25,873 nt of DNA from a virus, in IMG/VR virus record IMGVR_UViG_3300023084_000113, positions 1-25,873 of that record; one strand, written 5' to 3'. Position numbers and translations under genes: made by a program. The notes beneath the pieces are model-generated. The model was not told the origin of the DNA, did not search any database, and saw nothing but the letters and a program-made list of their open reading frames with translations. Shown one piece after another: positions 6,621 through 25,873 of the stretch (position 1 is the first letter of the stretch; every line of letters begins with the position of its first letter).

Positions 6621-6846
6621 GGTCAAGTTGGAAATAAACGACGAAATGAAATTCGAAGAAGGTGACTGTGCTGTGATAATCAAGGAAGACGGTTCTATAG
6701 GAAGAGTGATAATGCCTGACATGAATAAGGAATATCTAGACACAGAAGGATACAGGAAACTGCTAGATGTAATAGATGTGTTGGACCCTGGTAGCAAAGA
6801 AGAGTTCATCAAGTACAATGAAAAAGACAGAGGGAGTGTACATTAA
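6613..6846 (+). CDS. Small acidic hypothetical protein (TTG start)
   Basis: A 77-residue acidic protein beginning with TTG at 6613. This start is supported by a strong GGGAGG ribosome-binding sequence at 6601-6606, six bases upstream, and by the 8-base overlap with the previous gene. The first half is strand-like (CAVIIKEDGSIGRVIMPD), the second helical (YRKLLDVIDVLDPGSKEEF). No family recognised. Its TAA overlaps the ATG of the DnaE-like gene by one base (TAATG), so the two are translationally coupled and may be functional partners. Confidence 0.75.
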   Translation: MSKVKLEINDEMKFEEGDCAVIIKEDGSIGRVIMPDMNKEYLDTEGYRKLLDVIDVLDPGSKEEFIKYNEKDRGSVH

Positions 6847-7436
6847 TGCCTGATGTTGACATAGATTTTTTTGACAGAGACGGTGTGCTGAAACTGTTCA
6901 AACACACGCCGGCAACAATGATAAAAGATGGCAAGACAGAAAAACACAAGACAGGTGTTTACTTCCACGCAGTACCTGAACATCCGGTCACAGGGCACAG
7001 CACACTGGACTACAAGAAAGCAGAGGACAGAGGCTACTTCAAGATAGACATGCTGAACGTGAACATCTACAAGGAAATCAAGTCAGAACAGGAACTAGTC
7101 GAACTGATGATACAGGAACCAGACTGGGACATGCTGAAGGATCCAAAGACAGTGGAAAACCTTTTCCACCTAAATGGCCATTTCAACATAGTGTCGAAAC
7201 TAGAACCCAAAACTATCGAACAACTTGCGGCTGTATTAGCCATAATACGTCCTGCCAAGAGGCATCTGATGTACAAGGACTGGAAGGACATAATGGCAGA
7301 GGTATGGGTGCGTCCAAAGGACGGGTCATATTTCTTCAAGAAGTCACACGCCGTCGCTTACGCCCAGGCGATCGTTGTGCAGATGAATCTGATGTCACGT
7401 GCTAAATATAGTTTTGATGCAACGTCAAAAAACTAA
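6846..7436 (+). CDS. Miniature DNA polymerase III alpha (DnaE)-like protein
   Basis: Only 196 residues, but it shows in order several landmarks of the DnaE palm region: MPDVDIDFFDR at the N-terminus (PDxDxDF catalytic-aspartate motif, D3/D5/D7), HPVTGHSTLDYKKAEDRGYFKIDML (like the strand carrying the third Asp), then KTIEQLAAVLAIIRPAKRHL (like DnaE ALxRPGPL) and KKSHAVAYAQ near residue 165-174 (like NKSHAAAYA). DnaE itself exceeds 1,100 residues, so fingers, thumb, PHP and clamp-binding parts are missing. It cannot be a normal replicase; a regulator, decoy or relic that keeps the metal-binding fold is an inference. From memory, T4-like cyanophages carry a similar protein. It is coupled to the small gene upstream. 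Confidence 0.75.
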   Translation: MPDVDIDFFDRDGVLKLFKHTPATMIKDGKTEKHKTGVYFHAVPEHPVTGHSTLDYKKAEDRGYFKIDMLNVNIYKEIKSEQELVELMIQEPDWDMLKDPKTVENLFHLNGHFNIVSKLEPKTIEQLAAVLAIIRPAKRHLMYKDWKDIMAEVWVRPKDGSYFFKKSHAVAYAQAIVVQMNLMSRAKYSFDATSKN

Positions 7437-7578
7437 GAAAAAAATATCTAAAAAATCCAAACAAAAATCCAAGTCTTCTAAACGTTCAGAGTATGGCAGT
7501 TATCAGCCGGATAGTGGTTTAACACAACATTATCTTATAACAGGTGCTATACTTCCTGAAAAAAAGAAGACTAGATAG
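7417..7578 (+). CDS. Small Lys/Ser-rich protein (53 residues)
   Basis: This ATG lies inside the 3' end of the DnaE-like gene (20-base overlap), in the style of the operon. The N-terminal half is a run of Lys, Ser and Arg (KKKISKKSKQKSKSSKR), the second half is SEYGSYQPDSGLTQHYLITG, and the end is basic again. Its disordered, highly basic character suits nucleic-acid binding, but no family was recognised. The 3' end overlaps the reverse-strand gene at 7571 by 8 bases. Without it there would be an unusual 134-base gap, which supports it being real. Confidence 0.5.
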   Translation: MQRQKTKKKISKKSKQKSKSSKRSEYGSYQPDSGLTQHYLITGAILPEKKKTR

Positions 7579-7945
7579 GTTTTCTAACCAATTGGATAGT
7601 TCGTCTCTTCACCCGTTTCTTTGAAATATCAGACAGTCTCACGGTTGGTCCATGTACTATCTCAACATCCTTTGAATTCAGTGTTACAAGTGTAGTGCGG
7701 AAGTACCTAAACTGCCCCTTAAGGAATATGTTGATTGGCAGTTTCCTGTTGCTTTCGTGCCACCAGGTCTCTCCACATTTCAAAAATTTCATTTTGTCCT
7801 GTGGTAGCATGAGCCTCCCGTAATCGTAGAAACTAATAACATTTACGTCTTCGTTTTGCACAATACCAACGTATTCCAAATCGCCCTTTCTGATCAGACT
7901 TAGGAATGGGAATTTGTCCCTCAAAGTGTTAAAAATTTCGTTCAT
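7571..7945 (-). CDS. Conserved hypothetical protein of T4-like marine phages
   Basis: A 124-residue protein with no signal or membrane segment. Constrained-looking parts are LRDKFPFLSLIRKGDLEYVGIV, GETWWHESNRKLPINIFL and a basic C-terminal KKRVKRRTIQLVRKP. From memory, T4-like cyanophages carry a protein with the same GETWW...ESNR...PINIFL pattern, also of unknown function. It sits alone on the reverse strand between the replication operon and the late gene at 8056. A late-promoter motif for the opposite strand lies just upstream of its start, so the gap 7946-8055 is a divergent control region. Confidence 0.8.
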   Translation of the reverse strand: MNEIFNTLRDKFPFLSLIRKGDLEYVGIVQNEDVNVISFYDYGRLMLPQDKMKFLKCGETWWHESNRKLPINIFLKGQFRYFRTTLVTLNSKDVEIVHGPTVRLSDISKKRVKRRTIQLVRKPI

Positions 7946-7953
7946 GCTCTATC

Positions 7954-7961
7954 TATAAATA
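7954..7961 (+). promoter_or_regulatory. T4-type late promoter (TATAAATA)
   Basis: A perfect match to the T4 late-promoter core recognised by the phage sigma factor gp55. It lies ahead of a virion-type protein, as expected for late expression. Predicted transcription start is around 7967, giving a leader of about 90 bases to the GTG at 8056. Confidence 0.75.
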
Positions 7962-8055
7962 CTGTTAAATATGTATTATGCAAACAGTATCAAGGTATTT
8001 ACTATCACAGTTGGTAATAGCCTACGTAAATGGTTATCACGGGAGGAATTCAAAA

Positions 8056-8757
8056 GTGTACGATAGACGTTTAACACTACACAGAGGAGTGAACAATCCT
8101 ATCACTTTCACGTTTAAAAACGAGGATCAGAAGGCACAGGATATCACTAGCAAGACCTACGAGTTCAACATAGTGGACACAGAAAGCCAAAAATCAGTTC
8201 TAACAAAAACACTAACTGTGTTAGATGATGGCTCAACGGTGAGCACAAAAGGTGATGCAAGTTGCACAGTAACAGAGGGTGACCTATTACAGTTGGACGC
8301 CAAGTTCTATAATTTTGCAGTGCGAGAAGTCAAATCAGACGGTAGCAGGGAGGTTACCTATGCTGATACAGGATATGCGGCGGCCGGCACAGTAGAATTA
8401 CTAGACGGAGCGTACCCCCAGTTTGTACCAAGCACTTCAGTATCGGCCTTTACATTGTCAGGAGACATATTCACATCAAGTGCAATTGACGGCAAGCCAG
8501 GCATCAACAACAATATTGCTCTGCATACTGTTGCAATCTATCCAAAAAACTTTTCAGGTACATTAAAGATACAGGGCACTATGGAAAGTGATCCCACATC
8601 AGACAACGATTATTTTGATATTACCAACACGAGTCTGAGCAGTGCATCTAGTGTTTCCACACTCAACTTCACAGGTGTTTTCCAAAACGTGAGATTTGTG
8701 GCTACAAGGACTACTGGCACAACCGGCCGTATTGACAAAATCCTTTATAGACAGTAA
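8056..8757 (+). CDS. Putative virion structural (baseplate/tail-type) protein
   Basis: Start GTG 8056 is preferred: GGGAGG at 8041-8046 lies nine bases upstream, and the protein then begins YDRRLTLHRGVNNPITFTFKN, a typical opening of phage YD-type virion proteins with an Ig-like beta domain. The frame is open back to an ATG at 7978, but those 26 residues do not resemble a virion N-terminus. The 233 residues are Ser/Thr-rich and beta-strand-like, with no enzyme motif, and end in a beta domain carrying FQNVRFVATRTTGTTGRI. A perfect late promoter motif lies upstream. Its position between replication genes is unusual for a structural gene. The exact virion component is not known. Confidence 0.65.
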   Translation: MYDRRLTLHRGVNNPITFTFKNEDQKAQDITSKTYEFNIVDTESQKSVLTKTLTVLDDGSTVSTKGDASCTVTEGDLLQLDAKFYNFAVREVKSDGSREVTYADTGYAAAGTVELLDGAYPQFVPSTSVSAFTLSGDIFTSSAIDGKPGINNNIALHTVAIYPKNFSGTLKIQGTMESDPTSDNDYFDITNTSLSSASSVSTLNFTGVFQNVRFVATRTTGTTGRIDKILYRQ

Positions 8758-8760
8758 AAT
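8732..8760 (+). promoter_or_regulatory. Sigma70-type promoter for primase, near-leaderless
   Basis: TTGACA at 8732-8737 (perfect) and TAAAAT at 8755-8760 (5 of 6) are separated by 17 bases. The -10 box overlaps the stop codon of the virion gene and ends 7 bases before the primase ATG, so the transcript would start at or beside the A of ATG. Confidence 0.6.
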
Positions 8761-8767
8761 ATAGGGT

Positions 8768-9784
8768 ATGAACCTGATCCAATCTACTATTCTGACGAGC
8801 CTGCCTGCGGGTAGGAAGAAGACACCATCTGGGTGGATAAGTTTCAACGCACCCTGTTGTGTACACAACGGCGAGACAGCAGACAAAAAGAAACGTGGAG
8901 GCATTATGACCAGTGCGGACGGCACTGTCAGTTACCACTGTTTCAACTGTGGGTTCAAGGCCAGTTACGTGATCGGTCGTAAGCTCACATACAAGATGAG
9001 ACAGTTCATGAGCTACATAGGCATACCCGACGACACAATCAAAAAATTGGCCATCGAGGCCATGCGTGAAGAAGAGAATGACGTCAAGTATGAGAAAAAG
9101 AAATTCGTATCATTCAAGAAAAAGGAACTGCCGAGGAACACACACAAATTAGACGTGTGGCTAGAGAAGTATGTGGCAAACGATCTTACACAGCCGCAAT
9201 GGACCAAAATAGACGGCCTGCTGAAATACCTAGAAAGCAGAGGAATGGGCGCAGATTGGTATGACTTCATGTACTCTCCAGACAAGATGTGGGACATACA
9301 TCAGAGACTGTTGATCCCGTTCTACTGGAGGGGTGACATCGTGGGTTACACAGGAAGATTGTTTGATCAAGAATCAAAAGGTGTGAAGTACTATACCGAC
9401 GTGTGGCCAGGATACGTGTTCAACATGGACGCACAGGACTGGACCAGGAAGTTTGTGATAGTAACGGAGGGTCCTTTCGATGCCATAGCCGTTTCTGGTG
9501 TGAGCATACTTGGTAGTGAGATAAATGACACACAAAGAGAGTTGATAGACGGTCTCGGAAGGCAAGTGATAGTAGTGCCTGACAGAGACGCTCCAGGAGA
9601 AAAATTGATAGACCAAGCAATCGAGTATGGATGGGGTGTGGCGTTTCCAGAATGGCAAGACGACGTGGGCGATGTTGCAGACGCAGTGAGTCATTACGGT
9701 AGGTTGTTCACATTACAGTCTATACTCAACACAACAGAAACAAGTAAACTGAAGATAGATTTGAAGAGGAAGATGCATGGTTGA
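8768..9784 (+). CDS. 61: DNA primase, T4 gp61 type
   Basis: 338 residues, matching T4 gp61 (342). The N-terminal zinc-binding region shows C30, C31, H33 and then C58-x2-C61 in FNCGF. The TOPRIM core follows: VIVTEGPFDAIAV with Glu234, and VVPDRDAPGE with Asp272 and Asp274, the metal-binding residues. In T4, gp61 synthesises RNA primers on the lagging strand and works in a complex with the gp41 helicase, which is encoded just downstream. The gene overlaps the next by 8 bases. No ribosome-binding sequence is visible and the promoter -10 box lies 7 bases upstream, suggesting a leaderless message. Confidence 0.93.
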   Translation: MNLIQSTILTSLPAGRKKTPSGWISFNAPCCVHNGETADKKKRGGIMTSADGTVSYHCFNCGFKASYVIGRKLTYKMRQFMSYIGIPDDTIKKLAIEAMREEENDVKYEKKKFVSFKKKELPRNTHKLDVWLEKYVANDLTQPQWTKIDGLLKYLESRGMGADWYDFMYSPDKMWDIHQRLLIPFYWRGDIVGYTGRLFDQESKGVKYYTDVWPGYVFNMDAQDWTRKFVIVTEGPFDAIAVSGVSILGSEINDTQRELIDGLGRQVIVVPDRDAPGEKLIDQAIEYGWGVAFPEWQDDVGDVADAVSHYGRLFTLQSILNTTETSKLKIDLKRKMHG

Positions 9785-12021: not shown

Positions 12022-13311
12022 ATGAAATCCAAGACAGCCATATTTGTACCCGCAAAAGGTCAAAGTGAAAGAATTGCAAATAAAAATCTAACAATTCTAG
12101 ACGGCGAGTACCTATTCAAAAGGAAACTGCACCAAGTATTACAGTGTTCGGAAGTAGACGAAGTGTGGATAGATAGTGAATGTGATAATATACACCAACT
12201 GTGTAGTGACCTACCTGTCAAACACCTATACCGGAACAAAGAACTGGCAAACAACAAAACAGACGGACACGAGATGTTCGCAAATCAAACGAGGCACACA
12301 GACGCCGACATAGTTGTTCAAGTACTGTGTACTGCACCTTTCTTGGATGCCAATACAATAGACCAAGCACTGAAAAAATTCAAAGAGAGCTCACACACTA
12401 GTCTAGTGGCTACCAACACACAAAAGATTTACGAATGGAAAAATGGAACACCCACATATGGCGATCGAATACCCAACAGCAAGGACCTACCAGGCACAGT
12501 GGCTGAGTCCATGAGTTTTTATGCTGTGAAGACAGGCGGACAGGCAGTTCAAAAAAGATTTACAGATAATGTAATGCTTTACGAACTAACACCCTTGCAG
12601 AACATAGACATTAATAACAAAGAGGATCTGGAACTGGCAAAGGTTATTTGTGCAGGACAGCGTTCATTTAAGACACAACAATTGAAACTTTTATCAAAGG
12701 TCATCACAAGTCCTATGTTAAGTGACATCTGCAAAGAAATGAACATCAAACACTTTTTAAGTGATAAGATAAAACCCCAATCGAAGGGGAAGTTTCTAGG
12801 TTATGCAAAGACACTACAACTAGAAACACTAAAGGATGAAAACTGGAAAGGCATATTTGATGCCTTACAAAGTTATGATTTCATAGTGCCCGGTGACGTT
12901 ATTGTAGTGGCCACCGATGTGCCTGAGAAGGCATACTTCGGGGACCTTAATGCAATATTTGCCATCCGGGAAGGAGCGGTCGGTGTGGTGGTAGACGGAC
13001 ATACACGCGACACAGACAGGGTATCAGCAATGGGGTTACCTGTGTACGCACACGGTAATAGGGCCGACGATATCAGATTTGAAGGCACGGTCAAACAAAT
13101 GAATTCAAAAGTAAAAATAAACAACGTAAGTGTAAGGAACAATGACATAATATTTGCCGACACAGACGGCGTGATATGTGTGCCACAACAGAAATGGAAT
13201 GCTGTGCTGTCAAAACTGAAAGACAAACTTAAGACAGAGATGACAGTCAAGTTGGAGGCAACTTTTGGATCAGATCCCACCCAAGTATTAAATGATGTGG
13301 GAGAGTTCTAA
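12022..13311 (+). CDS. CMP-sugar synthetase fused to RraA-like domain
   Basis: 429 residues with two domains. Residues 1 to about 215 resemble acylneuraminate cytidylyltransferases (NeuA/PseF type): IFVPAKGQSERIANKNL at 7-23 replaces the usual PARGGSKRIPRKN loop, and VQVLCTAPFLDANTIDQAL follows in mid-domain; these enzymes load sialic-type sugars onto CMP. Residues about 225-429 resemble RraA/HMG-aldolase proteins: GDVIVV, then YFGDLNAIFAIREGAVG, VVVDGHTRDTDRV (Asp325, Arg329, Asp330) and ADTDGVICVP. RraA-like proteins are class II aldolases or RNase E regulators. Inferred: the C-terminal domain makes or cleaves a keto-acid sugar precursor that the N-terminal domain activates. The stop overlaps the next ATG (TAATG). 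Confidence 0.82.
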   Translation: MKSKTAIFVPAKGQSERIANKNLTILDGEYLFKRKLHQVLQCSEVDEVWIDSECDNIHQLCSDLPVKHLYRNKELANNKTDGHEMFANQTRHTDADIVVQVLCTAPFLDANTIDQALKKFKESSHTSLVATNTQKIYEWKNGTPTYGDRIPNSKDLPGTVAESMSFYAVKTGGQAVQKRFTDNVMLYELTPLQNIDINNKEDLELAKVICAGQRSFKTQQLKLLSKVITSPMLSDICKEMNIKHFLSDKIKPQSKGKFLGYAKTLQLETLKDENWKGIFDALQSYDFIVPGDVIVVATDVPEKAYFGDLNAIFAIREGAVGVVVDGHTRDTDRVSAMGLPVYAHGNRADDIRFEGTVKQMNSKVKINNVSVRNNDIIFADTDGVICVPQQKWNAVLSKLKDKLKTEMTVKLEATFGSDPTQVLNDVGEF

Positions 13312-14030: not shown

Positions 14031-14598
14031 CAAATTCAAAAGGCTCGACGCCGACATCATAAAGAGCATCGAAGACATATGCGGTCACACTTATGCGAGA
14101 TGCAGGCCTTACTTTACCAACACGAGGACAGCACTAGACATAGGAGCCAAAAGAGGACACTTCGCCAAACACATGCAGAAAGACTTTAGCAAGGTGCATA
14201 TGTTCGACATGAGACCAAAACTGAAATGGCGTAACCTCAATCCCAACAAATGCAAGATACACCGGTGTGCAGTGGGCGACCACAACGGCACTATAACTTT
14301 CAACGGTGCCGTGACTAACGTGGCCGGCGAGACAGCACAACTCAAGACCATAGACAGTTTTAACTTCGATGATGTGGATTTCATAAAGATAGATGTGGAG
14401 GGCGACGAACTGAACGTACTCAAGGGTGCTGTGAACACTTTAAAAAAACATAAACCAGTTGTGGTGCTCGAACAGAACCATACCACCGAGACCTACAACA
14501 AGGGCAAGTACGGTGACGCAGTGAGATGGTTGGAGCAGAACGATTACAAGATCGCAGACTATGACGGTATGGATGATTGGATAATGACTCATGTTTAA
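14020..14598 (+). CDS. FkbM-family SAM-dependent methyltransferase
   Basis: 192 residues from ATG 14020, chosen because AGGTGG at 14006-14011 is eight bases upstream; GTG 14008 and ATG 14014 are also in frame. The SAM-binding glycine loop is ALDIGAKRGHFAKHM, followed by MFDMRPK as the acidic strand, VGDHNGTITF, and the FkbM signature DFIKIDVEGDELNVLKG. FkbM-type enzymes O-methylate sugars or related small molecules. Its place between a sugar transferase and a radical SAM enzyme suggests modification of the same glycan. It overlaps its neighbours by 11 and 8 bases. Confidence 0.85.
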   Translation: MLSNKFKRLDADIIKSIEDICGHTYARCRPYFTNTRTALDIGAKRGHFAKHMQKDFSKVHMFDMRPKLKWRNLNPNKCKIHRCAVGDHNGTITFNGAVTNVAGETAQLKTIDSFNFDDVDFIKIDVEGDELNVLKGAVNTLKKHKPVVVLEQNHTTETYNKGKYGDAVRWLEQNDYKIADYDGMDDWIMTHV

Positions 14599-15577
14599 CG
14601 CTACACTACCGACACCCATAGAGCTCGCTTTCGAACCAATTAACCTCTGCAATGCTAGGTGTTTCTGTTGTCCTTACACATTCCTAGAGAAGGACAAGGA
14701 GTACAGAGGCAAACGTATGACCGGCGAACAAATATCAGGTCTCATTGATGAGTTTGCCAGCGGTCTGAAAAAGCATAGCATAAACACCAATCACTCTGTT
14801 GTATCCCCATGGAGATACAGTGACCCACTAGTGTGTCCCGATCTGGAAACAATTTTCGAACTGTGTGCAAGTCACAACCTACAAGTGGTACTGACCACAA
14901 ACGCAGTGAGTTTTACCGAACCTAAGTGCAAGTGGCTGGTGAAATACACATCTTACATCAAACAAATAAACATTTCTATAATCGGATACAACAGGGAGGA
15001 AATCAGAGAATACATGGACATAGATTGGAACGTGACCAAAGAACGTTTAAAGATGATTAAAGAAAAATATCCCGAGCTGAGTAAGAAAATGAACATAGGC
15101 ATTAAACATAAGATACAACACCCTGAGAAAAAACAGTACGGACAAATTGTAGACAAAATACAGAAGTTGACTTTAGGAAAAGTCAAAGTGAAAAAGGATT
15201 GGCTTGAGAACAGATTGGTCTATAACAAGTTTGACGACGACGGTATCAATTTTGGTATAAACGAAAAAAATTTTGTAAAAGGATGTTCAATGGTGCATGG
15301 CAAGATACTAAGACGTTTAGAGATAATGGTAGACGGCACTGCTGTGCTTTGCTGTGATGATGCCACCAAACAAACAAACTTTGGCAACGTGTTTGAACTA
15401 GGTATGGCAGGTGTATGGAACAACCTCAGGGAATACCATAACATGCTTTACAGTGACAAATGGCAAGAAGAGAAAAAAAATATGATGTGTAACACTTGCA
15501 GTAGGGCAAGATTCAGTTGGGACACAAAACAATCAAAAGACGTGATAGAATACAACAAGCATTTTACCAATGCGTAA
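14591..15577 (+). CDS. Radical SAM/SPASM enzyme
   Basis: 328 residues. The iron-sulfur motif CNARCFCC gives C20-x3-C24-x2-C27, in a strand starting LAFEPINLC. The C-terminal part has a SPASM-like layout: KGCSMVHGKILRRLEIMVDG, then AVLCCDD, NFGNVFELG, VWNN and CNTCSRARF, with enough cysteines for an auxiliary cluster. Radical SAM/SPASM proteins in surface-glycan clusters often act as dehydratases, epimerases or on peptides; here the substrate is unknown. It closes the forward glycan operon and is followed by a hairpin at 15606-15620, the only convincing terminator between convergent genes in this window. Confidence 0.85.
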   Translation: MFNATLPTPIELAFEPINLCNARCFCCPYTFLEKDKEYRGKRMTGEQISGLIDEFASGLKKHSINTNHSVVSPWRYSDPLVCPDLETIFELCASHNLQVVLTTNAVSFTEPKCKWLVKYTSYIKQINISIIGYNREEIREYMDIDWNVTKERLKMIKEKYPELSKKMNIGIKHKIQHPEKKQYGQIVDKIQKLTLGKVKVKKDWLENRLVYNKFDDDGINFGINEKNFVKGCSMVHGKILRRLEIMVDGTAVLCCDDATKQTNFGNVFELGMAGVWNNLREYHNMLYSDKWQEEKKNMMCNTCSRARFSWDTKQSKDVIEYNKHFTNA

Positions 15578-15678: not shown

Positions 15679-16617
15679 TTAGAATGTGAATTTGATTCCA
15701 GCCGCGGCATCTTGTGTGTCAACACCTGATGTGACGTCTGTCATTTCAAAGGCACCATACACGCTGAAGTTTTCACCGATCTTCTTCTCGGCTCCCACTG
15801 TTGTGTATGTGTTTCCATCCTTGATCTTGCCGTAACCCACTGAGTACGTTGTGTCTTCGATCACGTGCGAAGCAACGAATTCGTTGGCTTTGGTGTCAAG
15901 ATCGGTTGATTCCACAGTCTTGATTGTGTGGTTGTAACCGATCGTTGTGGCATCTGTGATGTCAAAAGAAGCACCAACACCCTTGTACTCGATGTTGTTC
16001 ACTTTGTCATCCGTGTAGGCGATACCCACGTTTAGGCTGTCGCTGATGTCCATAGACGCCGCAGTCTCGTACACGTCAACGCCTGACTTACCAGTTGTAC
16101 CGTCAACTTTTACCAAGTTGTCGATCTGGATCGCACCAAGCGTGTTCGAGTAGATCACTGTGTGTGAGTCTCTGCTGAACAGTTTCTGTGCGGCAGTATT
16201 ACCGTATTCCGGGAACACATCCGTCTTAGATGTCACAGCACCCTTGAACACAGAATTCTGTCTTCCGGCTGATAGCACACCTGCTCCACCCATGTCAACG
16301 CCGGCGAAAGCCAGTTTTGAATCAAATGGTGTGGAACCAGAGTCATCTGCATCGATCGCCACTTCCAACTTGGCGAAACCGTCAACGCCCTCTGAGATGT
16401 TGCTCGAGAAGTCAACACCGATGCTGGAACCATTGTTCTCTGCCTTTGATGTTGAGACGCCGTTGGCGTCCTCGTTGTTAGAAAGCATATAGTTCAGTGA
16501 ACCATAAACCTTCATATCAGCCGCTTCGGCCGGTGTTGGTTTCATCAACCAACCGATTACCACAAGTGCCACTATTATGGCCGCACCTATGGCCGTCTTC
16601 TTCTTTGTCATTTTCAT
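15679..16617 (-). CDS. Gram-negative porin-like outer-membrane protein
   Basis: 312 residues. A basic N-terminus and hydrophobic core (AAIIVALVVIGWL) end at PTPAEA, a good signal-peptidase I site, followed by ADMKVYGSLNYML, the common opening of general porins (KVYGxxxY). The rest is alternating beta-strand with many Gly, Ser, Asp and Thr (for example GVDGFAKLEVAID, GAGVLSAGRQNS) and ends in Phe, as expected for BAM-inserted barrels. Predicted role: passive pore in the host outer membrane. ATG 16617 was chosen because AGGAG lies ten bases upstream. A late-type motif GATAAATA lies 88 bases upstream. Lambdoid phages carry porins that replace host ones; a T4-like phage porin is unusual. Confidence 0.8.
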   Translation of the reverse strand: MKMTKKKTAIGAAIIVALVVIGWLMKPTPAEAADMKVYGSLNYMLSNNEDANGVSTSKAENNGSSIGVDFSSNISEGVDGFAKLEVAIDADDSGSTPFDSKLAFAGVDMGGAGVLSAGRQNSVFKGAVTSKTDVFPEYGNTAAQKLFSRDSHTVIYSNTLGAIQIDNLVKVDGTTGKSGVDVYETAASMDISDSLNVGIAYTDDKVNNIEYKGVGASFDITDATTIGYNHTIKTVESTDLDTKANEFVASHVIEDTTYSVGYGKIKDGNTYTTVGAEKKIGENFSVYGAFEMTDVTSGVDTQDAAAGIKFTF

Positions 16618-16810: not shown

Positions 16811-17842
16811 ATGAAGATAAACCAACGACTGTTTGACCATTACGGCATAGACACAGGCAAGGACCTCAAGATGCAGGTCAGGTGTCCGAGGCCGTTCGAC
16901 ACCGTGCTGATAGACAAGCAGGGATCGTGCTACGCCTGTGAGTGCCAGGCCTGGTTGCCACAGAGCATAGGCAACCTTCAGTTGAAACCACTATCGGAGA
17001 TACTGGGCGGCAACACACACCGGCACCTGCAGGCCACCATAGAGGACGGCACGTTCAGGTACTGCAACGAGCACAGGTGCACACACCTGCGGCACGGCAT
17101 AGGCTGGGACGAGGGCAGGCCGTTCCAGGTGAGGCTGGCCATAGATGACAGTTGCAACCTGAGGTGTCCAAGTTGCCGCAAGGGCATGATATTCCACAAG
17201 GAGGGTTCAGCGTACCGGAGGGGCATCTTGCTGGCGGACAGGGTCAACGACTGGCTGGCCATGTGCGACACACCGATACAGGTGCACATAGGATCCGATG
17301 GTGACCCGTTCGCTTCCCATGTGTACAGGCACTTCATGGAGCACACGCCCGTGCGCGACAACATAGAATACACCATCCTCACCAACGGGCTCATGTTCCA
17401 GGAGTTCCACACACGTGTTCCGCACGTGATAGGACGCACGACGCAACTGGGCGTGAGCATAGATGGCGCCACCCGAGAGACCTACGAGCGGCTGAGGCTG
17501 GGCGGGCGTTGGAACAAGATACAAGAGAACCTGGAGTGCATGCGACAACAGAAGCGCGAGCACGGGTTCGAGTTCGTCATGCACTTCGTGGTGCAGAGGC
17601 ACAACTACCACGAGATGCGTGATATCATATACCTGGCGGAGCAGTACGAGGTGGACCGGTTGTGGCTGAACAAGATCGAGGACTGGGGCGTGATGTCGGA
17701 CTGGCGCGAGCAGGACATATTCCATCCAGACCATCCAGAGCATGACAGGTTCCAGCAGGAACTGGAGCGTGTGAAGCCGTTGCTGGACCACGAGCACACC
17801 AGACCCAGGGTGCAGGCTCCCAGGCTCTACAAACGCAATTAG
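16811..17842 (+). CDS. Radical SAM protein with SPASM-like domain first
   Basis: 343 residues. The N-terminal 95 residues look like a SPASM/auxiliary cluster domain: C25, C40, C43, C45, the NLQLKPLSEILGG segment and C85/C90. Only then comes the radical SAM core with CNLRCPSC (C115-x3-C119-x2-C122), GSDGDPF, TILTNGLM and LGVSIDGATRETYERLR. In usual SPASM enzymes the order is the reverse. The gene is far richer in G+C than its surroundings: 37 of 60 bases in 17041-17100. It still uses AGG and ATA codons like the rest of the window. Substrate unknown; peptide or glycan modification is possible. It ends one base before the convergent hydrolase gene. Confidence 0.78.
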   Translation: MKINQRLFDHYGIDTGKDLKMQVRCPRPFDTVLIDKQGSCYACECQAWLPQSIGNLQLKPLSEILGGNTHRHLQATIEDGTFRYCNEHRCTHLRHGIGWDEGRPFQVRLAIDDSCNLRCPSCRKGMIFHKEGSAYRRGILLADRVNDWLAMCDTPIQVHIGSDGDPFASHVYRHFMEHTPVRDNIEYTILTNGLMFQEFHTRVPHVIGRTTQLGVSIDGATRETYERLRLGGRWNKIQENLECMRQQKREHGFEFVMHFVVQRHNYHEMRDIIYLAEQYEVDRLWLNKIEDWGVMSDWREQDIFHPDHPEHDRFQQELERVKPLLDHEHTRPRVQAPRLYKRN

Positions 17843-18858: not shown

Positions 18859-18935
18859 TGGTGGACCGGACAGGATTCGAACCTATGGCCTTGAGTTCCG
18901 CAAACTCACGCTCTATCCAACTGAGCTACCGGTCC
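18859..18935 (-). tRNA. tRNA-Arg (anticodon GCG)
   Basis: Full cloverleaf on the reverse strand: acceptor GGACCGG paired with CCGGTCC, D-arm GCTC/GAGC, anticodon stem TGAGT/ACTCA with loop TTGCGGA, TTCGAAT T-loop, discriminator A and encoded CCA. The GCG anticodon reads CGC and CGT; most bacteria use ACG (inosine) for this box, so an unmodified GCG is uncommon. Confidence 0.95.
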
Positions 18936-18937
18936 TT

Positions 18938-19014
18938 TGGCGTGCCCGGCAGGATTCGAACCTGCGACCCCAAGTTTAGGAAACTCGTATTCTATCCAAC
19001 TGAACTACGGGCAC
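18938..19014 (-). tRNA. tRNA-Arg (anticodon CCT)
   Basis: Acceptor GTGCCCG/CGGGCAC, D-arm GTTC/GAAT (one wobble), anticodon loop TTCCTAA, T-arm GCAGG/CCTGC with TTCGAAT, discriminator G and encoded CCA. It reads AGG, a codon used heavily by genes in this window. Two bases separate it from the tRNA-Arg(GCG). Confidence 0.95.
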
Positions 19015-19019
19015 CTGTG

Positions 19020-19093
19020 TGGTGGAGGATAGGAGAGTCGAACTCCTGACTCATCCATGCCATGGATGCGTGATCCCACTTCACCAATCCCCC
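19020..19093 (-). tRNA. tRNA-Ala (anticodon GGC)
   Basis: Acceptor GGGGGAT pairs with ATCCTCC and contains a G3-T70 wobble, the alanine identity element. Anticodon stem CATCC/GGATG encloses loop ATGGCAT, anticodon GGC, reading GCC. T-arm AGGAG/CTCCT, discriminator A and encoded CCA. Five bases separate it from the tRNA-Arg(CCT). Confidence 0.92.
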
Positions 19094-19097
19094 AAAC

Positions 19098-19162
19098 GAA
19101 CCAATCGCATGCAAGACCAATGAGTTTTTTGGTGTATATGGTAATTCTGGCATAATTGGTTC
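19098..19162. repeat. Inverted repeat between tRNA genes
   Basis: GAACCAAT (19098-19105) and ATTGGTTC (19155-19162) form a perfect eight-base stem around 49 bases, between tRNA-Ala and tRNA-Thr. An inner ACCAA/TTGGT pair is also possible. The element is about tRNA-sized but shows no T-loop or anticodon arm. It may guide processing of the tRNA precursor or be a decayed tRNA. Confidence 0.45.
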
Positions 19163-19165
19163 AAA

Positions 19166-19241
19166 TGGTGCCGCTTCACGGATTCGAACCGCGGACCTAC
19201 TGATTACAAATCAGTTGCTCTACCAACTGAGCTAAAGCGGC
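19166..19241 (-). tRNA. tRNA-Thr (anticodon TGT)
   Basis: Acceptor GCCGCTT/AAGCGGC, D-arm GCTC/GAGC, anticodon stem ACTGA/TCAGT with loop TTTGTAA (anticodon TGT, reading ACA), T-arm CGCGG/CCGTG, discriminator A and encoded CCA. It is the first tRNA of the transcript. Confidence 0.96.
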
Positions 19242-20964: not shown

Positions 20965-21582
20965 CTATCTCTGTATGTGCTTGACGAAGATGTTGGTGAC
21001 GTGTTCGTTATTGATCACGTGATCCACCTGCACAGCGATGTCTCTCGACTCCAGAGCGTTGGCGTGTGGACCCGTCCAGTTCGCTTGGTCATCGGTCAAC
21101 GGCACACCCCAGTTCTTCCTCATGGAAGATTTTATCCTACCTAGGCTGAAGTCAACAAATCGAAACTGCTTGGTTTCATTGCGTAAAGTTTCTATCATAA
21201 ACTTCAATCCGTACTTGGCAGTGTGATAGGCACCTGCACTGCTGGAGTTTGAATCCTGGTGGGTGGTCATATAGATTATTGTCCCTTTTTCGTTCTGCCT
21301 GGTGAATATCTGTGTCAGCAACATTGGTGCCAGTTGATTGCACTTCATGACATTCATCCATTGTTCGAAAGGCGAGTCTATGAACTTTTGGTGTCCTTTG
21401 TCGTGACCCGCATTGCAGATCAACACATCATAACCCTTGAGGTCTATGCCCTGTAACTTGTCGAGGTCATGGTGATCCCATTCCGGCCTATTGATTTCAA
21501 ATATCTCGTGACCCTTTGACGACAGTAATTCGGTAGTGGCCTTGCCTATGCCACTAGTGGTTCCTGTGATTGCGATCTTCAT
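20965..21582 (-). CDS. Short-chain dehydrogenase/reductase (SDR)
   Basis: 205 residues with classical SDR landmarks: TGTTSGIG at 6-13 (cofactor glycine loop), CNAG at 56-59, and the catalytic YHTAK (Tyr119, Lys123) after a Ser-rich TTHQDSNSSS strand. It is shorter than typical SDRs (about 250), lacking much of the C-terminal substrate lid. Expected to be an NAD(P)-dependent oxidoreductase; the substrate is unknown. It lies one base after the second SDR gene, in one reverse operon with tctC. Confidence 0.88.
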   Translation of the reverse strand: MKIAITGTTSGIGKATTELLSSKGHEIFEINRPEWDHHDLDKLQGIDLKGYDVLICNAGHDKGHQKFIDSPFEQWMNVMKCNQLAPMLLTQIFTRQNEKGTIIYMTTHQDSNSSSAGAYHTAKYGLKFMIETLRNETKQFRFVDFSLGRIKSSMRKNWGVPLTDDQANWTGPHANALESRDIAVQVDHVINNEHVTNIFVKHIQR

Positions 21583-21583
21583 C

Positions 21584-22363
21584 TTAGTAGTACTTGGGAT
21601 GGTCCTTCATGGGAGTGTCCTTGACATTGTCCCTGGTCCTGATCGTCTCTGCACCATCGAACACAATGTTCTGCCCTGTCATGAACTTGTTGGTATCGCT
21701 GTTCAACCAAAGCAACACGTTGGCAACGTTTTCTGATTCCGTTCCCGTGCCCAATGGTATATCATTTTTGTATATCTTTTTCAGTGCCTCGCCATGGTAA
21801 CCCACGTACAAGTTCTTGGTTCTCTTTGAGTTTCCAAGTATCACATTATTGAATAAGTTTTTCTTCCAGGTCCAGAAAGCACTCGCAGACCTGAAGTAGA
21901 ACTCCGCCATGTGTTTGGCCCCACCAGTCGCTGGCTTGTTCGGACCACCTGCGTAGATCAAGGAACTGATCCCAGATATACTTGCCCATTTCATTAGATT
22001 GTTCTCGTCAGAGAGTTCAGGTTTGCACTCAATGATCAAACTTGCCAACGGCTCTGCACACATCTTCACCGCGTGTTGTATGTCCTCAAGTTTCAGTTTG
22101 TCCCAGCCTATGTTCCAACTTTCGCCGACCAGCCAGTACACCTTTGTTATCGGTCCTTGTTGTCTTGCTGTCTCCACAACATCTTTCATGTCGGTGCCCT
22201 CAAACATATTTTTTTGCACCATTGTGATGTTTGGATTCTTCTCTAATTCTTTTGCGTGGTCGTCGTACTTCCTGTATGTACCTACCACCTTGTGTGTCTT
22301 TGCTTCTTCCTGTGCCACGAAACTTCCTATCGAACCATTAGCACCGCAAATCAAAACTGTCAT
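21584..22363 (-). CDS. SDR-family protein without the catalytic Tyr
   Basis: 259 residues. GANGSIG at 7-13 is the cofactor loop, WASISGISS supplies the Ser strand, and the end has TGQNIVFDGAETIRTRDN, like the usual GQxxxxDGG ending of SDRs. At the active site, ATGGAKH keeps Lys150 but has Thr at 146 where Tyr is expected, so normal reductase chemistry is doubtful; it could be a regulatory subunit or use another mechanism. AAGGAG precedes the ATG. It directly precedes the second SDR gene, and the two may form a hetero-oligomer. Confidence 0.75.
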   Translation of the reverse strand: MTVLICGANGSIGSFVAQEEAKTHKVVGTYRKYDDHAKELEKNPNITMVQKNMFEGTDMKDVVETARQQGPITKVYWLVGESWNIGWDKLKLEDIQHAVKMCAEPLASLIIECKPELSDENNLMKWASISGISSLIYAGGPNKPATGGAKHMAEFYFRSASAFWTWKKNLFNNVILGNSKRTKNLYVGYHGEALKKIYKNDIPLGTGTESENVANVLLWLNSDTNKFMTGQNIVFDGAETIRTRDNVKDTPMKDHPKYY

Positions 22364-22416: not shown

Positions 22417-23289
22417 TTATTTTCCTACCCAACTTTTTCCCGCTTTATCTAATATCGCGGACCAACCTGTGGAGTCTAAGTCTCCGTACACAGATGGATG
22501 GAATAGTTTTTTCTTTTCGATGTGTCCTGTAACAGAACCGTCCTTTAACACGTTCACCCATGCCGCTCTAAGTTTGGCTACATCGGCTTCGCTCATGTTA
22601 GCAGAATCCAAGTAAGTGAACGTTTGGATGTCATTGTACTTGTAGTCTGGGAATAGGTCTGCCATTGGCTCCATGTCTAAGATCTTTGTAGGTCCGGTGT
22701 TCGCCCAACAAGAGATACCGTTCTTTGTCACACCGCTAACTGCTTTTGGCATGTTAGTGAATAACATATCTGTATCACCTGCAATGAAACCTTTGAGACT
22801 CTTACCTGATGAACCGTATGGAACGAACTTCATAGGTGTGCCAGTCACTTCAACCAACGGGTCAATCAAGTGCTGACCGTATGAGTTTGAAACTGCGAAT
22901 GTAAGTCTCTTACCGGCTTTCAATTTGTTTACCGCAATGTCAATGCTGTCGTTAGAACAGAATGCCATTGCTCTGCCCCAACCTGTTCCGATCCATGATT
23001 CCGGAGAGGCCTGTAATTCATTTCCTACAGTTTCGTGCTCCAGTGTGTTTTGGATCCAAACACTTGGGTTCTTGCTTGTTTTTAGATAGATAGTGGCTCC
23101 AACTGTGCTGTCAACGATGATCTTGTTGAACTTGTATCCTGTCTCTCTTTCCAAGATAGGAATGAACAATTCAGCGTTGTCGTAAGCAGTTCCACCCGGG
23201 GTACCTGTTACTAGGTAATCGATTGTCTTTGCATTCACAGACGTAAGGGACATCAGTGAAACAAAAAACGCGATGATTGTCTTCTTCAT
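22417..23289 (-). CDS. tctC: TctC-type periplasmic substrate-binding protein
   Basis: 290 residues. MKKTIIAFFVSLMSLTSVNA is a clean signal peptide. The mature part follows the tripartite tricarboxylate transporter (TTT) receptor pattern: an early VTGTPGGTAYDNAE loop, TVGATIYLKTS, and VPYGSSGKSLKGFIAGDTDMLF, corresponding to the conserved YxGxGxxxxxLxGGxxD stretch. Predicted role: binding a carboxylate such as citrate in the periplasm and delivering it to TctA/TctB. It has a perfect-consensus sigma70 promoter and an AAGGA ribosome site of its own. It is downstream of tctA, whereas bacterial operons usually run C-B-A. Ligand unknown. Confidence 0.82.
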   Translation of the reverse strand: MKKTIIAFFVSLMSLTSVNAKTIDYLVTGTPGGTAYDNAELFIPILERETGYKFNKIIVDSTVGATIYLKTSKNPSVWIQNTLEHETVGNELQASPESWIGTGWGRAMAFCSNDSIDIAVNKLKAGKRLTFAVSNSYGQHLIDPLVEVTGTPMKFVPYGSSGKSLKGFIAGDTDMLFTNMPKAVSGVTKNGISCWANTGPTKILDMEPMADLFPDYKYNDIQTFTYLDSANMSEADVAKLRAAWVNVLKDGSVTGHIEKKKLFHPSVYGDLDSTGWSAILDKAGKSWVGK

Positions 23290-23321
23290 TTATTTTTCCT
23301 TTGTTTAAGTTAACTTTCAAC

Positions 23322-23350
23322 ATTATACATTTTTGAGTACAACGTGTCAA
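23322..23350 (-). promoter_or_regulatory. Perfect-consensus sigma70 promoter for tctC
   Basis: Reverse strand: TTGACA (23350-23345), exactly 17 bases, TATAAT (23327-23322). Predicted start near 23315, a leader of about 26 bases and an AAGGA site eight bases before the ATG. Confidence 0.85.
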
Positions 23351-23354
23351 CAGT

Positions 23355-23403
23355 CAGGACACGAGTCAAGCAATAGGAGTTAGTTATTCCTGTACGTGTC
23401 CTG
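23355..23403. repeat. Nine-base inverted repeat upstream of tctC
   Basis: CAGGACACG (23355-23363) and CGTGTCCTG (23395-23403) are perfectly complementary around 31 bases, with an inner AGGA/TCCT pairing. It lies just upstream of the tctC -35 box. Possible terminator for upstream transcripts, operator or RNA fold. Confidence 0.55.
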
Positions 23404-23478
23404 TCTGTTTTGGAAATGTTTGCGAATGCTCACGGGCTGGCGTTCTCTAATGAGTAAAGAGAGATCTGATATTGGCAT
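23380..23478 (-). CDS. Possible microprotein (32 residues) in the tctA-tctC gap
   Basis: ATG 23478 opens a 32-codon frame beginning MPISDLSLLIRERQPVSIRK and ending FQNRQDTYRNN. Composition (alternating hydrophobic, Arg, Gln, Asn) reads like a real small protein rather than random frame. A late-type AATAAATA motif lies 64 bases upstream on the same strand. No clear ribosome site is visible, and two inverted repeats overlap the region, so a non-coding RNA is the main alternative. Confidence 0.35.
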   Translation of the reverse strand: MPISDLSLLIRERQPVSIRKHFQNRQDTYRNN

Positions 23479-23491
23479 ATTGCGATCTCTC
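23459..23491. repeat. Eight-base inverted repeat
   Basis: GAGAGATC (23459-23466) pairs with GATCTCTC (23484-23491) across 17 bases. It overlaps the start of the possible 32-codon ORF, which could make translation of that ORF dependent on the fold. Confidence 0.5.
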
Positions 23492-23541
23492 AGGCGTCAG
23501 TTTTTATCCCGACGTCGATGTTGCTATCGGCGTTACGTGGG

Positions 23542-23549
23542 TATTTATT
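23542..23549 (-). promoter_or_regulatory. Late-promoter motif (AATAAATA) after tctA
   Basis: Reverse-strand NATAAATA match ten bases beyond the tctA stop. It would transcribe the structured gap, the possible microprotein and then tctC late in infection, adding to the sigma70 promoter. Confidence 0.5.
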
Positions 23550-23558
23550 TTGGTAATA

Positions 23559-24968
23559 TTATCTGATACCGAGATTTGGAATGTGTGGTAACCAGTCAGA
23601 GTAGATATGTAACAGCCTTATCACTGCACCCTGTATCTGTCCCTGCAGAACAAATGCGAAGATCACTATCAGTGTGTCCCATCTTCGCAGTAGGTATCCG
23701 ATAGGCAACAGTGCGGCGGTAACCATCATGTAGTACATCTGCTGTTGCACAATGGTGCCCATGTAGAACACCAGACACATCAACAGTATGAACGTGAGAG
23801 TGTACAGCAGTTTCTGATTAATTTTGAACAGCACGTGTAGGTGCTTGGCAAATGGCCATGCCGCTAGTAGACACAGAGCATTCATCACTATGAAGTAAAT
23901 CACTAACTGACCAAACATGCCTGAAGCCACTGTGGTCTCCCAATTTATGACCTGCATATTGTTCTCGATTATGTTCAGCACGATCGCCTCGCTGGTGGTG
24001 ATCGGTATCCCTATCAACAGCAGGGGTGTGAGTTGTGTCAGTCCGGCCGCGTTGTTGGCCGTCTCTGCACTGACAAGGCTCTTGATGTCTCCGTTCTCGT
24101 CATAGGCGCCTTTCTTCTTCTGCCTGTTCATCTCCCTGATGTAGGCCACGTTACTGGCCAGGGTAGATGTCATGTGTGGCACCAGTCCACATAGACTGCC
24201 TATCACTGTCCCACGTATGCTGGAACCTATGTTGTTCCAGAACTCTCTCAGGTGTTGCACGAACTTGTTGTCCCACAACTTGTCCAGTGCGCTGGAGTCG
24301 GGCCTAGGACTGTTCCACTCCTTGAGGAAGATTGGGAACACGAACAGTGCCACCACCACTGGATACAGGGGCAGACCGAAGTGTAGGTAGTAGAACTTCT
24401 TGTAGTCTATCAGCCATTCGTAGTTGTACTGCATCAGTTCCTTGGAGAATCCTATGGAACTCAGGAACCAACCTATGGCGAACAGCAAGAGATTGTGATA
24501 CCACTTCTGTCCGGCGTAGGTCATTATCAGGAATATCGCGACACCTATCAGTATCACAGATTGTATGTGTGTGTTGTAGAATTTTGATATGGCGTACACC
24601 CCCACAGGCAACAGCAACAACATTATGCCAGAAGCAATACCGGCGCCAAAGAAACTGCCTATGGCACTGTTGCTGATCGCGTAGTTGCCCCTGCCCGAAA
24701 GGAACATCCTGTGTCCTTCAGTGACCGCAGGTAGACTGGAAGTCTCGCCTGGCACCGCGAGGGTGGTGGCCACCACACTGCCCGTGTACTGTGCGGCTCC
24801 CGCCAGGCACATATAGAACAGCACTATCTGGAATAGATCGAAGTCCGTTATGAATGGGTAAACCAATATCAGTGTTATGACATTACCAATGCCCGGCAGT
24901 ACTCCTGCCACTAGGCCAAGCAGTATACCCGCAAACATTATTATTAGATTCAAGAAAACCGGATCCAT
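23559..24968 (-). CDS. tctA: TctA-type large membrane subunit of a TTT transporter
   Basis: 469 residues, slightly shorter than bacterial TctA (about 500). The N-terminus has GLVAGVLPGIGNVITLILVYP, the TctA signature, then AAQYTGSVVATTLAVPGE and a second copy-like GSLCGLVPHMTS and LLIGIPITTSEA in the middle, matching the internal repeat of the family. Many membrane helices run to the end. Predicted role: inner-membrane, ion-coupled uptake of a carboxylate delivered by TctC. No tctB-like gene lies between or beside them, so host TctB would be needed or the complex works without it. Its promoter overlaps the gene before it and predicts a leaderless message. Confidence 0.9.
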   Translation of the reverse strand: MDPVFLNLIIMFAGILLGLVAGVLPGIGNVITLILVYPFITDFDLFQIVLFYMCLAGAAQYTGSVVATTLAVPGETSSLPAVTEGHRMFLSGRGNYAISNSAIGSFFGAGIASGIMLLLLPVGVYAISKFYNTHIQSVILIGVAIFLIMTYAGQKWYHNLLLFAIGWFLSSIGFSKELMQYNYEWLIDYKKFYYLHFGLPLYPVVVALFVFPIFLKEWNSPRPDSSALDKLWDNKFVQHLREFWNNIGSSIRGTVIGSLCGLVPHMTSTLASNVAYIREMNRQKKKGAYDENGDIKSLVSAETANNAAGLTQLTPLLLIGIPITTSEAIVLNIIENNMQVINWETTVASGMFGQLVIYFIVMNALCLLAAWPFAKHLHVLFKINQKLLYTLTFILLMCLVFYMGTIVQQQMYYMMVTAALLPIGYLLRRWDTLIVIFAFVLQGQIQGAVIRLLHIYSDWLPHIPNLGIR

Positions 24969-24974
24969 AGCGTT

Positions 24975-25002
24975 ATTATAATGTATACATCCTAAAAGTC
25001 AA
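24975..25002 (-). promoter_or_regulatory. Sigma70-type promoter for tctA, near-leaderless
   Basis: Reverse strand: TTGACT (25002-24997, 5 of 6), 16 bases, TATAAT (24980-24975). The -10 box ends six bases before the tctA ATG, so the transcript starts at or beside it. The -35 box lies in the last codons of the PP-loop gene. Confidence 0.65.
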
Positions 25003-25873
25003 TCACCGCGGCAGTGATGTTCTTGCGTCCATCTCCTAGTATGCCGCCTGTGCCTAGAAGACATGAGTTGTGTACCTTCTCGTTGAGCATTTTTATCCAC
25101 TGGTAATACTCCTTGTACTTGTCATTCTCCTTCGTCCAGAACGAGAAGCGAGGTTGCTCCTGCCATGGCAACAGCCAGTCCTTGCTCTTGCTGTCGTGGA
25201 AGATGTCCAGTCCCTTGTACATGATCTCGTCGTGTACCCATTCGTTGTTGGTGGTCCACAGGTCATCATTGCCCGTGATGTTCACACGCAACCTTTCTTG
25301 TTCCGTGGCGTTGTTGTACCAGTTCCTAATCTCCTCACCCACCTTTATCATTATGTCATGTGTTTCATAGAACCTCACTGTTGGCAACCGGAAACTGATC
25401 GCTCCCAATTGGTTGACCTCCGTGTCTCCCAGGAACAGCGACCAGGTGTCCGTCAATCTGTTGTGGATCGCATTCTTCCAACCCTGGCCTGACAGTATGA
25501 CTCCGTTGCCGGCCATGCGCTCTGGAACAAAGTGATCTGTGCCTATCCTACAGATGTCGTCCAACATCTCCATTGTGGTTAGACTGCACCACAGTGCGTG
25601 GTCGTGGTGTTGCTCTATGGTCTTATCGTAGCACTCGTCTATGTCAAGATACCTCACTTTGGTCTGGGGGAATCTCTCGACATATGACTCCACGTGGTGC
25701 ATGTTCTCTGATATCTCAGAGTTGAACCCTGTCCTGTGTGTTGCTGGATCGCCATGCACCTGCATGGATATAAGATCTATCTGGCAGTCGGCCTGCTCGG
25801 CCGCCTTCAGTATCATAGTGCTGTCGTGTCCGCCTCCCCAACTCAGTTCTACGTAGTCATACTGTTCACGCAG
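24992..25873 (-). CDS. PP-loop ATPase-like protein, 5' partial
   Basis: The frame is open to the window end; the ATG at 25816 is internal. The 19 codons before it read ...YVELSWGGGHDST, a PP-loop (SxGGxDS) that binds ATP pyrophosphate in asparagine synthetase, QueC, tRNA thiolation enzymes and sugar amidotransferases such as PseA/WbpG. The following MILKAAEQADCQIDLISMQ is the expected helix and strand. The rest (274 residues) is Trp/His-rich with VILSGQGWKNAIHNR and LLGTGGILGDGRK and is not one I can place in a subfamily. Likely chemistry: ATP-dependent adenylation of a substrate before amide or thiol transfer. It precedes tctA by 23 bases. Confidence 0.7.
   Translation of the reverse strand: MREQYDYVELSWGGGHDSTMILKAAEQADCQIDLISMQVHGDPATHRTGFNSEISENMHHVESYVERFPQTKVRYLDIDECYDKTIEQHHDHALWCSLTTMEMLDDICRIGTDHFVPERMAGNGVILSGQGWKNAIHNRLTDTWSLFLGDTEVNQLGAISFRLPTVRFYETHDIMIKVGEEIRNWYNNATEQERLRVNITGNDDLWTTNNEWVHDEIMYKGLDIFHDSKSKDWLLPWQEQPRFSFWTKENDKYKEYYQWIKMLNEKVHNSCLLGTGGILGDGRKNITAAVIDF

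Follow-up and report, generated by a model that had tools for sequence, protein, structure and literature searches.

The best-known uptake genes carried by phages are single add-on parts. Among the transporters that depend on a solute-binding protein (SBP), the tripartite tricarboxylate transporter (TTT) family TctCBA comprises the periplasmic receptor TctC and the membrane proteins TctB and TctA, and according to the available text of PMC5812351 its TctA bears the motif G-x3-G-x3-G-x2-P-G-x-G in transmembrane segment (TM) 1 and again in TM7. The archaeal stand-alone TctA, arCOG04469, occurs without TctB and most such genes also without TctC (accessible part of PMC5898192). In viruses, two reports mention such genes in their accessible parts: PMC4164917 notes a tctA domain match on contigs of SUP05 viruses, and PMC8115048 places ‘tricarboxylate transport’ genes next to viral norB/nirK on a myovirus scaffold. 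We describe here a pair of genes, tctA and a divergent tctC-like gene, lying without detectable tctB in the virus record IMGVR_UViG_3300023084_000113, whose whole 25,873 bp are referred to as the window (L and G numbers are labels of compared viral loci and records). We consider it on balance probable that this tctB-less TTT cassette provides a working two-part importer in late infection, associated with a PP-loop partner and an RNA leader.

The cassette resembles the TctCBA systems by a TctA homologue extending over nearly the whole Pfam model, a receptor of TctC type by profile comparison and the adjacency of the two genes. It differs from them in that no TctB was found in the 26 viral records searched, by the position of tctA ahead of tctC in 16 of the 26 additional loci, by a shorter TctA and by a TM7 motif altered in the clade of the window. 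The absence of TctB is shared with the archaeal stand-alone TctA, whereas a TctC-like gene is kept in most phage loci. The SUP05 and myovirus cases likewise place TctA or tricarboxylate-transport genes on marine viral contigs, but in their accessible text they consist of a domain match or a neighbouring gene only, with no B-less A-C pair, PP-loop partner or RNA. Our search of the open-access literature (subscription papers and preprints were outside its scope) found no description of a tctB-less phage A-C cassette, of its PP-loop partner or of an RNA before tctC. A first-pass annotation of the window, made from the sequence alone, had stated that no well-described phage copy was known, which is roughly right apart from these passing mentions.

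The permease, the receptor and their phage origin

Both genes are complete open reading frames (ORFs) at the place and on the strand where the first-pass annotation had located them. The tctA gene (23559-24968, minus strand) encodes a membrane permease of 469 amino acids (aa) that matches PF01970 (7.1e-64; 216.4 bits for a cut-off of 28.9) over profile positions 1-416 of 423. Simple hydropathy gives 11 hydrophobic segments, within the family expectation of about 9-12 transmembrane segments, and the TM1 motif is present (GILLGLVAGVLPGIG). Phage TctAs are short, with 441-471 aa in six phage rows versus 492-552 aa in 14 cellular rows. In a 20-row tree, these six phage TctAs form one side of a branch against the 14 cellular rows, a small sample, with a support of 100/100; the first-pass annotation had called for a tree to see whether phage copies form their own clade, and in this sample they stand apart. 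When the very long branch of L259 is added, the seven phage rows are supported at 100/99 and the six without L259 at 61/18, with unsettled bootstraps and long-branch warnings. Similar TctAs were found in six records of the phages collection, including a Salmonella genome record; their identity is 20-26%, and every alignment covers less than 80% of the query. The scan of bacterial genome contigs for the closest TctA extended to two Shouchella genomes.

The adjacent gene (22417-23289, minus strand) encodes a protein of 290 aa that is assigned by profile comparison only. The four-member clade of the window protein aligned by hhalign with nine bacterial plasmid TctCs at 90.9% over 272 columns, versus 0.3% for the TRAP DctP and porin controls. 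A weak PDB match was obtained with the TTT receptor 2dvz (2.7e-4), and a hidden Markov model (HMM) built from seven other phage receptors picks up the window protein at 3e-9. On these profile comparisons, the window receptor is to be regarded as TctC-like and very divergent; a search of the phages collection returned no record with a similar protein. In other phages bearing the RNA described below, 6 of 8 receptor candidates score above the PF03401 cut-off. The type-II phage receptors as a group align with bacterial TctC at 95.1%, and the receptor of L259 aligns with type-II phage receptors at 97.8% and with phage receptors of the PF03401 type at 81.2%. Receptors of the TRAP-type DctP family (PF03480) were also observed, in L169 (3011-4009, minus strand, 1e-33) and L404 (3007-3975, minus strand, 5e-33), two contigs that also carry a TctC or a TctA. 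Phages thus collect receptors of two SBP-dependent transporter families, TctC and DctP.

Phages do acquire host genes, and the cassette could in principle be passenger DNA, either host genes caught by chance or part of a chimeric contig of phage and host. We regard this as highly improbable, as the same gene set is found on viral contigs with TctA identities of 100% (3300023180_006927 and 3300022935_002598) and of 89, 88 and 72% (3300020404_002009, 3300044491_002358 and 3300031519_000139), as well as in distant phages, and as the phage TctAs form the single branch mentioned above. On the contig 3300044491_002358 (L006), the cassette is accompanied by a replicative helicase and a primase 91% and 85% identical to those of the window. 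The phage origin proposed at first is therefore borne out, and the chimera that could have undermined it is refuted by identical or syntenic copies repeated on other viral contigs. The description of the phage as T4-like gains no support from the window: a T4 portal gene was detected in none of five of its own and sister fragments searched, and the nearest relative of its replicative helicase is the one from Pseudomonas phage PA5oct (50.7%). It is appropriate for some carriers of the cassette, as a T4 portal gene is present in 4 of 26 TctA-bearing viral records (194,073, 170,818, 191,975 and 86,540 bp) and in 5 of 31 records searched overall, the fifth being a 331,654-bp record included for its RNA. 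The cassette carriers are large phages, some of them T4-like.

Search for tctB and recurrence of the cassette

With PF07331 (TctB) at E<=10, no match was obtained in the window record and five sister records, nor in any of 26 TctA-bearing viral records, including the T4-portal contigs of 170,818, 191,975 and 194,073 bp (the window and G002 represent one phage among these 26). An HMM of 10 plasmid TctBs found nothing in about 194 kb (window, G002, G003, G005 and part of G006) or in 26 further TctA loci. Besides TctA, a hydropathy scan of the window revealed no ORF with three or more hydrophobic segments; in the records of the window type, it retrieved only an FTR1-like protein and a 137-aa ORF with a TTG start and four segments (L008 6122-6535). 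The first-pass annotation had noted the missing TctB and suggested looking for it elsewhere in the genome; these three approaches detected none in the records and loci that they covered, which are not known to be complete. The control on cellular DNA behaves differently: among 10 annotated plasmid loci picked for diversity out of 45 listed rows, tctB lies directly upstream of tctA in all 10, and the order is C-B-A in eight.

Several candidates for a TctB were considered and rejected. A small TctB hidden in the tctA-tctC gap is dismissed because the coding strand has just two ORFs of at least 20 aa there (one of 32 aa, and one of 59 aa overlapping tctC) and because the gap is conserved as a structured RNA. 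In the phage of the window, the 200-aa membrane protein encoded some genes upstream of the cassette (L005 1330-1932, plus strand) is an FTR1-like iron permease (PF03239, 1.5e-10). Four ORFs in the vicinity of other cassettes, each having 3-5 hydrophobic segments, correspond to DUF6580, DoxX (two) and Na_Pi_cotrans.

Using aligned divergent phage TctAs as the query, we retrieved 30 viral loci and examined the 26 outside the window's own type. These include three pairs of near-duplicates (L395/L413, L402/L403 and L405/L406) and three loci known beforehand (L390, L394 and L419). A TctC-like gene is present at or near tctA in 23 of these 26 loci, with weak receptor calls in L408 (2e-4) and L412 (1e-4). 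The order is A then C in 16 and C then A in seven, so that the A-then-C order pointed out for the window is frequent but not universal. The three loci without a TctC-like gene are L404, whose contig ends in tctA, L415, and L417, whose contig is cut and where visual inspection suggests a receptor-like motif in a partial ORF. The 66-kb contig 3300020404_002009 (L009) has a second, distinct pair (4297-6409, plus strand) made up of a TctA (33% identical) and, following it, its own 259-aa receptor, with its own PP-loop gene upstream. In the distant cassette of L259, the RNA is followed by a PP-loop gene, an oxygenase-like gene, TctA, the receptor and an SDR, with a gap of 11 nt between TctA and receptor. 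The association of tctA and tctC without tctB looks like a recurrent phage cassette and not like a chance loss. As A and C recur without detectable B in the presence of very divergent phage TctAs, the two-part version envisaged in the first-pass annotation is favoured over an accidental loss of tctB, while the complementation by host TctB that it proposed as well remains a rival.

This rival would be a hybrid importer, in which phage TctA and/or TctC operate with the host TctB (and TctA), the phage contributing high-affinity receptors and an extra permease; we consider it possible, with a clearly minority chance. The cyanophage PstS is thought to play such a receptor role for phosphate. The hybrid is consistent with six records having a tctC that passes PF03401 and no PF01970 match (L054, L169, L018, L028, L272 and L271, records not known to be complete), among which L271 has two receptor genes side by side, and with the presence of B beside A in all the plasmid loci opened. 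A PF01970 match was found in just 1 of 12 RNA-bearing records outside the window's type, and the frequent occurrence of tctC without tctA fits better with the use of host TctA and TctB than with a self-sufficient phage pair. On the other hand, identities between the TctA of the window and the 14 cellular ones compared reach only 18-25% (25-29% in local plasmid matches), a distance that makes a retained interface with host TctB doubtful. Moreover, no B was detected over a range of very divergent phage TctAs, in whose loci A and a TctC-like gene remain associated.

In the two-part importer that we prefer, a small carboxylate would be bound in the periplasm by TctC and then taken into the cell by TctA at the expense of the ion gradient; the PP-loop enzyme and the neighbouring SDR and oxygenase-like proteins could then act on the imported compound. 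The RNA, located behind a promoter of T4 late type, might constitute the 5' leader of tctC or of a whole-cassette transcript and tune its stability or translation. We infer transport, its substrate, the two-part function, the cis action of the RNA and the mechanism of this RNA from the gene content and the comparisons presented here.

A structured RNA between tctA and tctC

The gap between tctA and tctC measures 269 bp in the window and 263-284 bp in four relatives (window, L009, L006 and L008), which show strong conservation of its 5' part together with compensatory changes. It contains a structured RNA element (23426-23536, minus strand), a putative 5' leader of tctC. The first-pass annotation had overlooked this element, as well as the PP-loop gene truncated at the window end. 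A first model from five copies (R1) and pattern scans led to further copies, and a second model (R2) was built from nine sequences with a five-helix structure drawn by hand; R2 recognises the window copy, used in building it, with 73.9 bits (E 7.6e-13). R2 retrieved 17 copies in 96 sources, nine of them its own builders; a further 100 loci matching the search patterns gave no match at E<=0.1. In total, the element amounts to at least 25 copies on 24 loci. L101, considered as a further copy, was discarded (26 bits by R1, with a 3' half poor by eye). Over 25 copies, 96.0% of the cells are paired versus 76.5 in shuffles, double-sided changes affect 16 of 21 pairs versus 10.7 in shuffles, and the covariation score reaches 0.457 versus 0.146 in shuffles and 0.055-0.088 in slid versions; the alignment was fitted to the structure, which favours covariation, but the shuffled and slid controls still differ widely. 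A cmscan against Rfam 15 gave no match at gathering for the window copy, with three chance-level matches far below the cut-offs at E<=10, and 12 other loci likewise had no match at gathering where the element lies. A blastn search of the phages collection gave only scraps of 25-26 nt, and R1 found no copy in Pelagibacter phage HTVC008M. The element is mostly single-copy (present in 17 of 18 records searched, once in 15). It probably represents a new family of cis-regulatory leaders, judging from its structure and position.

Its linkage with the transport genes is best evaluated on the 26 loci selected by TctA, which are the least biased test: 12 of them carry the RNA (E<=4e-4), including 10 new ones, eight without near-duplicates, L390 and L419 having been known before. 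In these new loci, the RNA heads A-C (L391, L405, L406, L407 and L410), C-A (L411 and L418), or an oxygenase-like gene followed by C-A (L402, L403 and L408). Overall, 20 of 25 copies, counting L310, precede gene sets with tctC or tctA. Among the 17 copies, tctC is the next gene in the window, L009, L006, L008, L169, L028, L054, L271 (first copy) and L272. A receptor-like gene without Pfam match follows the RNA in L310; in L018, a barrel-like protein (by eye, no Pfam match) precedes tctC. In L259, the next gene is the PP-loop gene of the TctA cassette. In L315 and L296, and by eye also in L313, the RNA is followed first by a DUF2061 membrane protein and next by a PP-loop gene. L310 displays two overlapping tandem RNA matches (4014-4178, minus strand) before the receptor-like gene and a porin. 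Behind the RNA of the 145-kb phage contig L166 lie three membrane proteins resembling fatty-acid desaturases by eye (6331-9306, minus strand; His-rich motifs), and the one among them that was tested, L030 305-1111, has no Pfam match. The RNA-bearing viral contigs L296 (1376-1727, plus strand) and L028 (65-324, plus strand) contain tmRNA genes of permuted or alphaproteobacterial type.

The core of the T4 late promoter is TAAATA, with the consensus TATAAATA. A box of this type (23542-23547, minus strand) ends 5 nt before the RNA in the window, and TAAATA occurs within 20 nt upstream of the RNA in 16 of 17 copies, 5-6 nt from its start in 14 of the 16, for a background of 0.6% of the 20-mers of these loci; it is also found in 8 of 10 further copies (two pairs being near-duplicates). 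A sigma-70-like site, TTGACA-17-TATAAT with a 12/12 match, is located between the RNA and tctC (23322-23350, minus strand), with similar boxes by eye in L006 and L008 and a weaker one in L009, and another with an 11/12 match lies directly upstream of tctA (24975-25002, minus strand). The proposal that both genes have their own promoters thus finds a well-matched site before each of them, but the region as a whole contains eight such sites versus 7.6 in shuffles, i.e. the chance level. If these sites are active, tctC could be made early without the RNA and late with it. A more ambitious proposal is that the element defines a new cis-regulatory RNA class in phages, which may be a riboswitch sensing the imported compound or a product of the PP-loop enzyme and would control a genuinely two-part TTT importer late in infection; we hold this combined reading to be unlikely.

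Neighbouring genes and alternative functions

The gene upstream of tctA (24992-25873, minus strand, truncated at the window end) encodes a PP-loop ATPase-like protein (SWGGGHDS) that is whole in L005, with 361 aa; its score of 3e-100 with the PP-loop HMM is obtained by construction, since its relatives built the model. A PP-loop gene occurs within a few kb of tctA in 18 of the 26 further loci, partly by construction for L390 and L419. In the same 194 kb as above, the five matches of the HMM (1e-5) all adjoin tctA; they represent four distinct ones, the window and G002 being one phage, and more distant PP-loop genes could escape the model. The protein has an S-x-GG-x-DS-like motif, a structural model with a predicted local distance difference test (pLDDT) value of 61 and a best Foldseek E-value of 4.9e-4 with low TM-scores. 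The motif and a Rossmann-like core in the model weakly recall the N-type PP-loop ATPases (NAD synthetase, beta-lactam synthetase, MnmA and LarE), from which the phage model differs by TM-scores of about 0.2-0.3 of the query and identities of 12-18%. The PP-loop proteins have no meaningful match in Pfam or NCBIfam, and in PHROGs only the second L009 protein matches, with a QueC-like family (0.0035).

On the other side of the cassette, two SDR-family proteins are encoded, one of 259 aa (21584-22363, minus strand; PF13561, 1.3e-12; 96% identical in L006, 92% in L004 and L009) and one of 205 aa (20965-21582, minus strand; PF00106, 6.7e-17; 73% in L006). The first-pass annotation had suggested that they act on the imported compound. 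Some support, at this single locus, comes from the distant cassette of L259, where the A-C pair is likewise followed by an SDR, one that aligns with the 205-aa protein at 95.2% over 76 columns (hhalign). The oxygenase-like label of other neighbours relies on spaced H-x-D and H residues seen by eye. Their identity as 2-oxoglutarate oxygenases was not retained, as L005 2010-2729 has no Pfam match and hhalign was negative among the window, L259 and L315 proteins; only the label ‘oxygenase-like’ is kept.

These neighbours also fit with a function other than catabolic import, in which TctC and TctA would serve a change of the envelope or the synthesis route of a small modified compound (export or sensing) together with the PP-loop, oxygenase-like and SDR proteins. 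The frequent proximity of the PP-loop gene agrees with it, as does the presence of the RNA ahead of a porin gene (L271 second copy), a desaturase-like gene (L166), DUF2061 genes and, by eye, outer-membrane-barrel genes. We judge it improbable, given the importer make-up of the cassette, a secreted receptor with a permease of the TctA family, and the conservation of the TM1 motif.

Apart from the tctC genes found without tctA, several observations weigh against the two-part importer and its RNA leader. The diversity of the genes headed by the RNA is one of them. Deletion work on TpiBA, a characterised TTT, indicates in the available text of PMC5812351 that both membrane subunits are essential. 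The first-pass annotation had described the family motifs as intact, which is true of TM1 in TctA but not of its TM7, where the window clade shows GSLCGLVPHMT while PG.G is found in 13 of the 14 cellular TctAs compared (PHMT/PHLT in the four window-clade rows, PG without the second G in L009b and L139, a complete PGAG in L259), nor of TctC, which has no match in all Pfam (0.01) or with PF03401 in the genome search (E<=10). The AlphaFold model of the window TctC, from only four sequences, has a pLDDT of 34.5. None of five tested receptors beside further TctAs passes PF03401 (L418 at 0.0023 is below the cut-off), and the L259 receptor taken alone aligns with bacterial TctC at 2.5% and with the window receptor at 6.3%. 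The receptor calls of the further loci depend on our own HMMs at 1e-3, one of which L390, L394 and L419 helped to build. As the sequence of TctB is little conserved and the viral records may be incomplete, a divergent or distant TctB could be missed, and three further ORFs with 3-4 hydrophobic segments stay candidates (L008 6122-6535, and L391 2661-3116 and L406 6742-7317, both on the strand opposite to the cassette). Finally, the sigma-70-like site between the RNA and tctC implies that the RNA need not be on every tctC transcript.

Elsewhere in the window, a single ORF (12022-13311, plus strand) combines two domains, one of the cytidylyltransferase type (PF02348) and one of the RraA-like aldolase type (PF03737), and a Gram-negative porin is phage-encoded (15679-16617, minus strand; PF00267, 1.7e-9). 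Two radical-SAM/SPASM-like proteins are present (14591-15577 and 16811-17842, plus strand), the second being slightly below the cut-off of both models. Four tRNA genes are clustered at 18859-19241 (minus strand): Arg(gcg), Arg(cct), Ala(ggc) and Thr(tgt).

Whether TTT transport can dispense with TctB is an open question, for which the recurrence of an A and C cassette with no detectable B in divergent large phages would provide a natural test; such a cassette would also mean that phages supply an entire import route. Clues to the imported compound and to the timing of its import may come from the linked PP-loop family and the RNA. As a covarying family outside Rfam 15, situated behind late promoters and mostly before genes for uptake or the envelope, this RNA would add a further level to the control of late genes in large phages. 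Should a riboswitch and a two-part importer prove to be combined in this cassette, large phages would open and tune their own carboxylate supply line.

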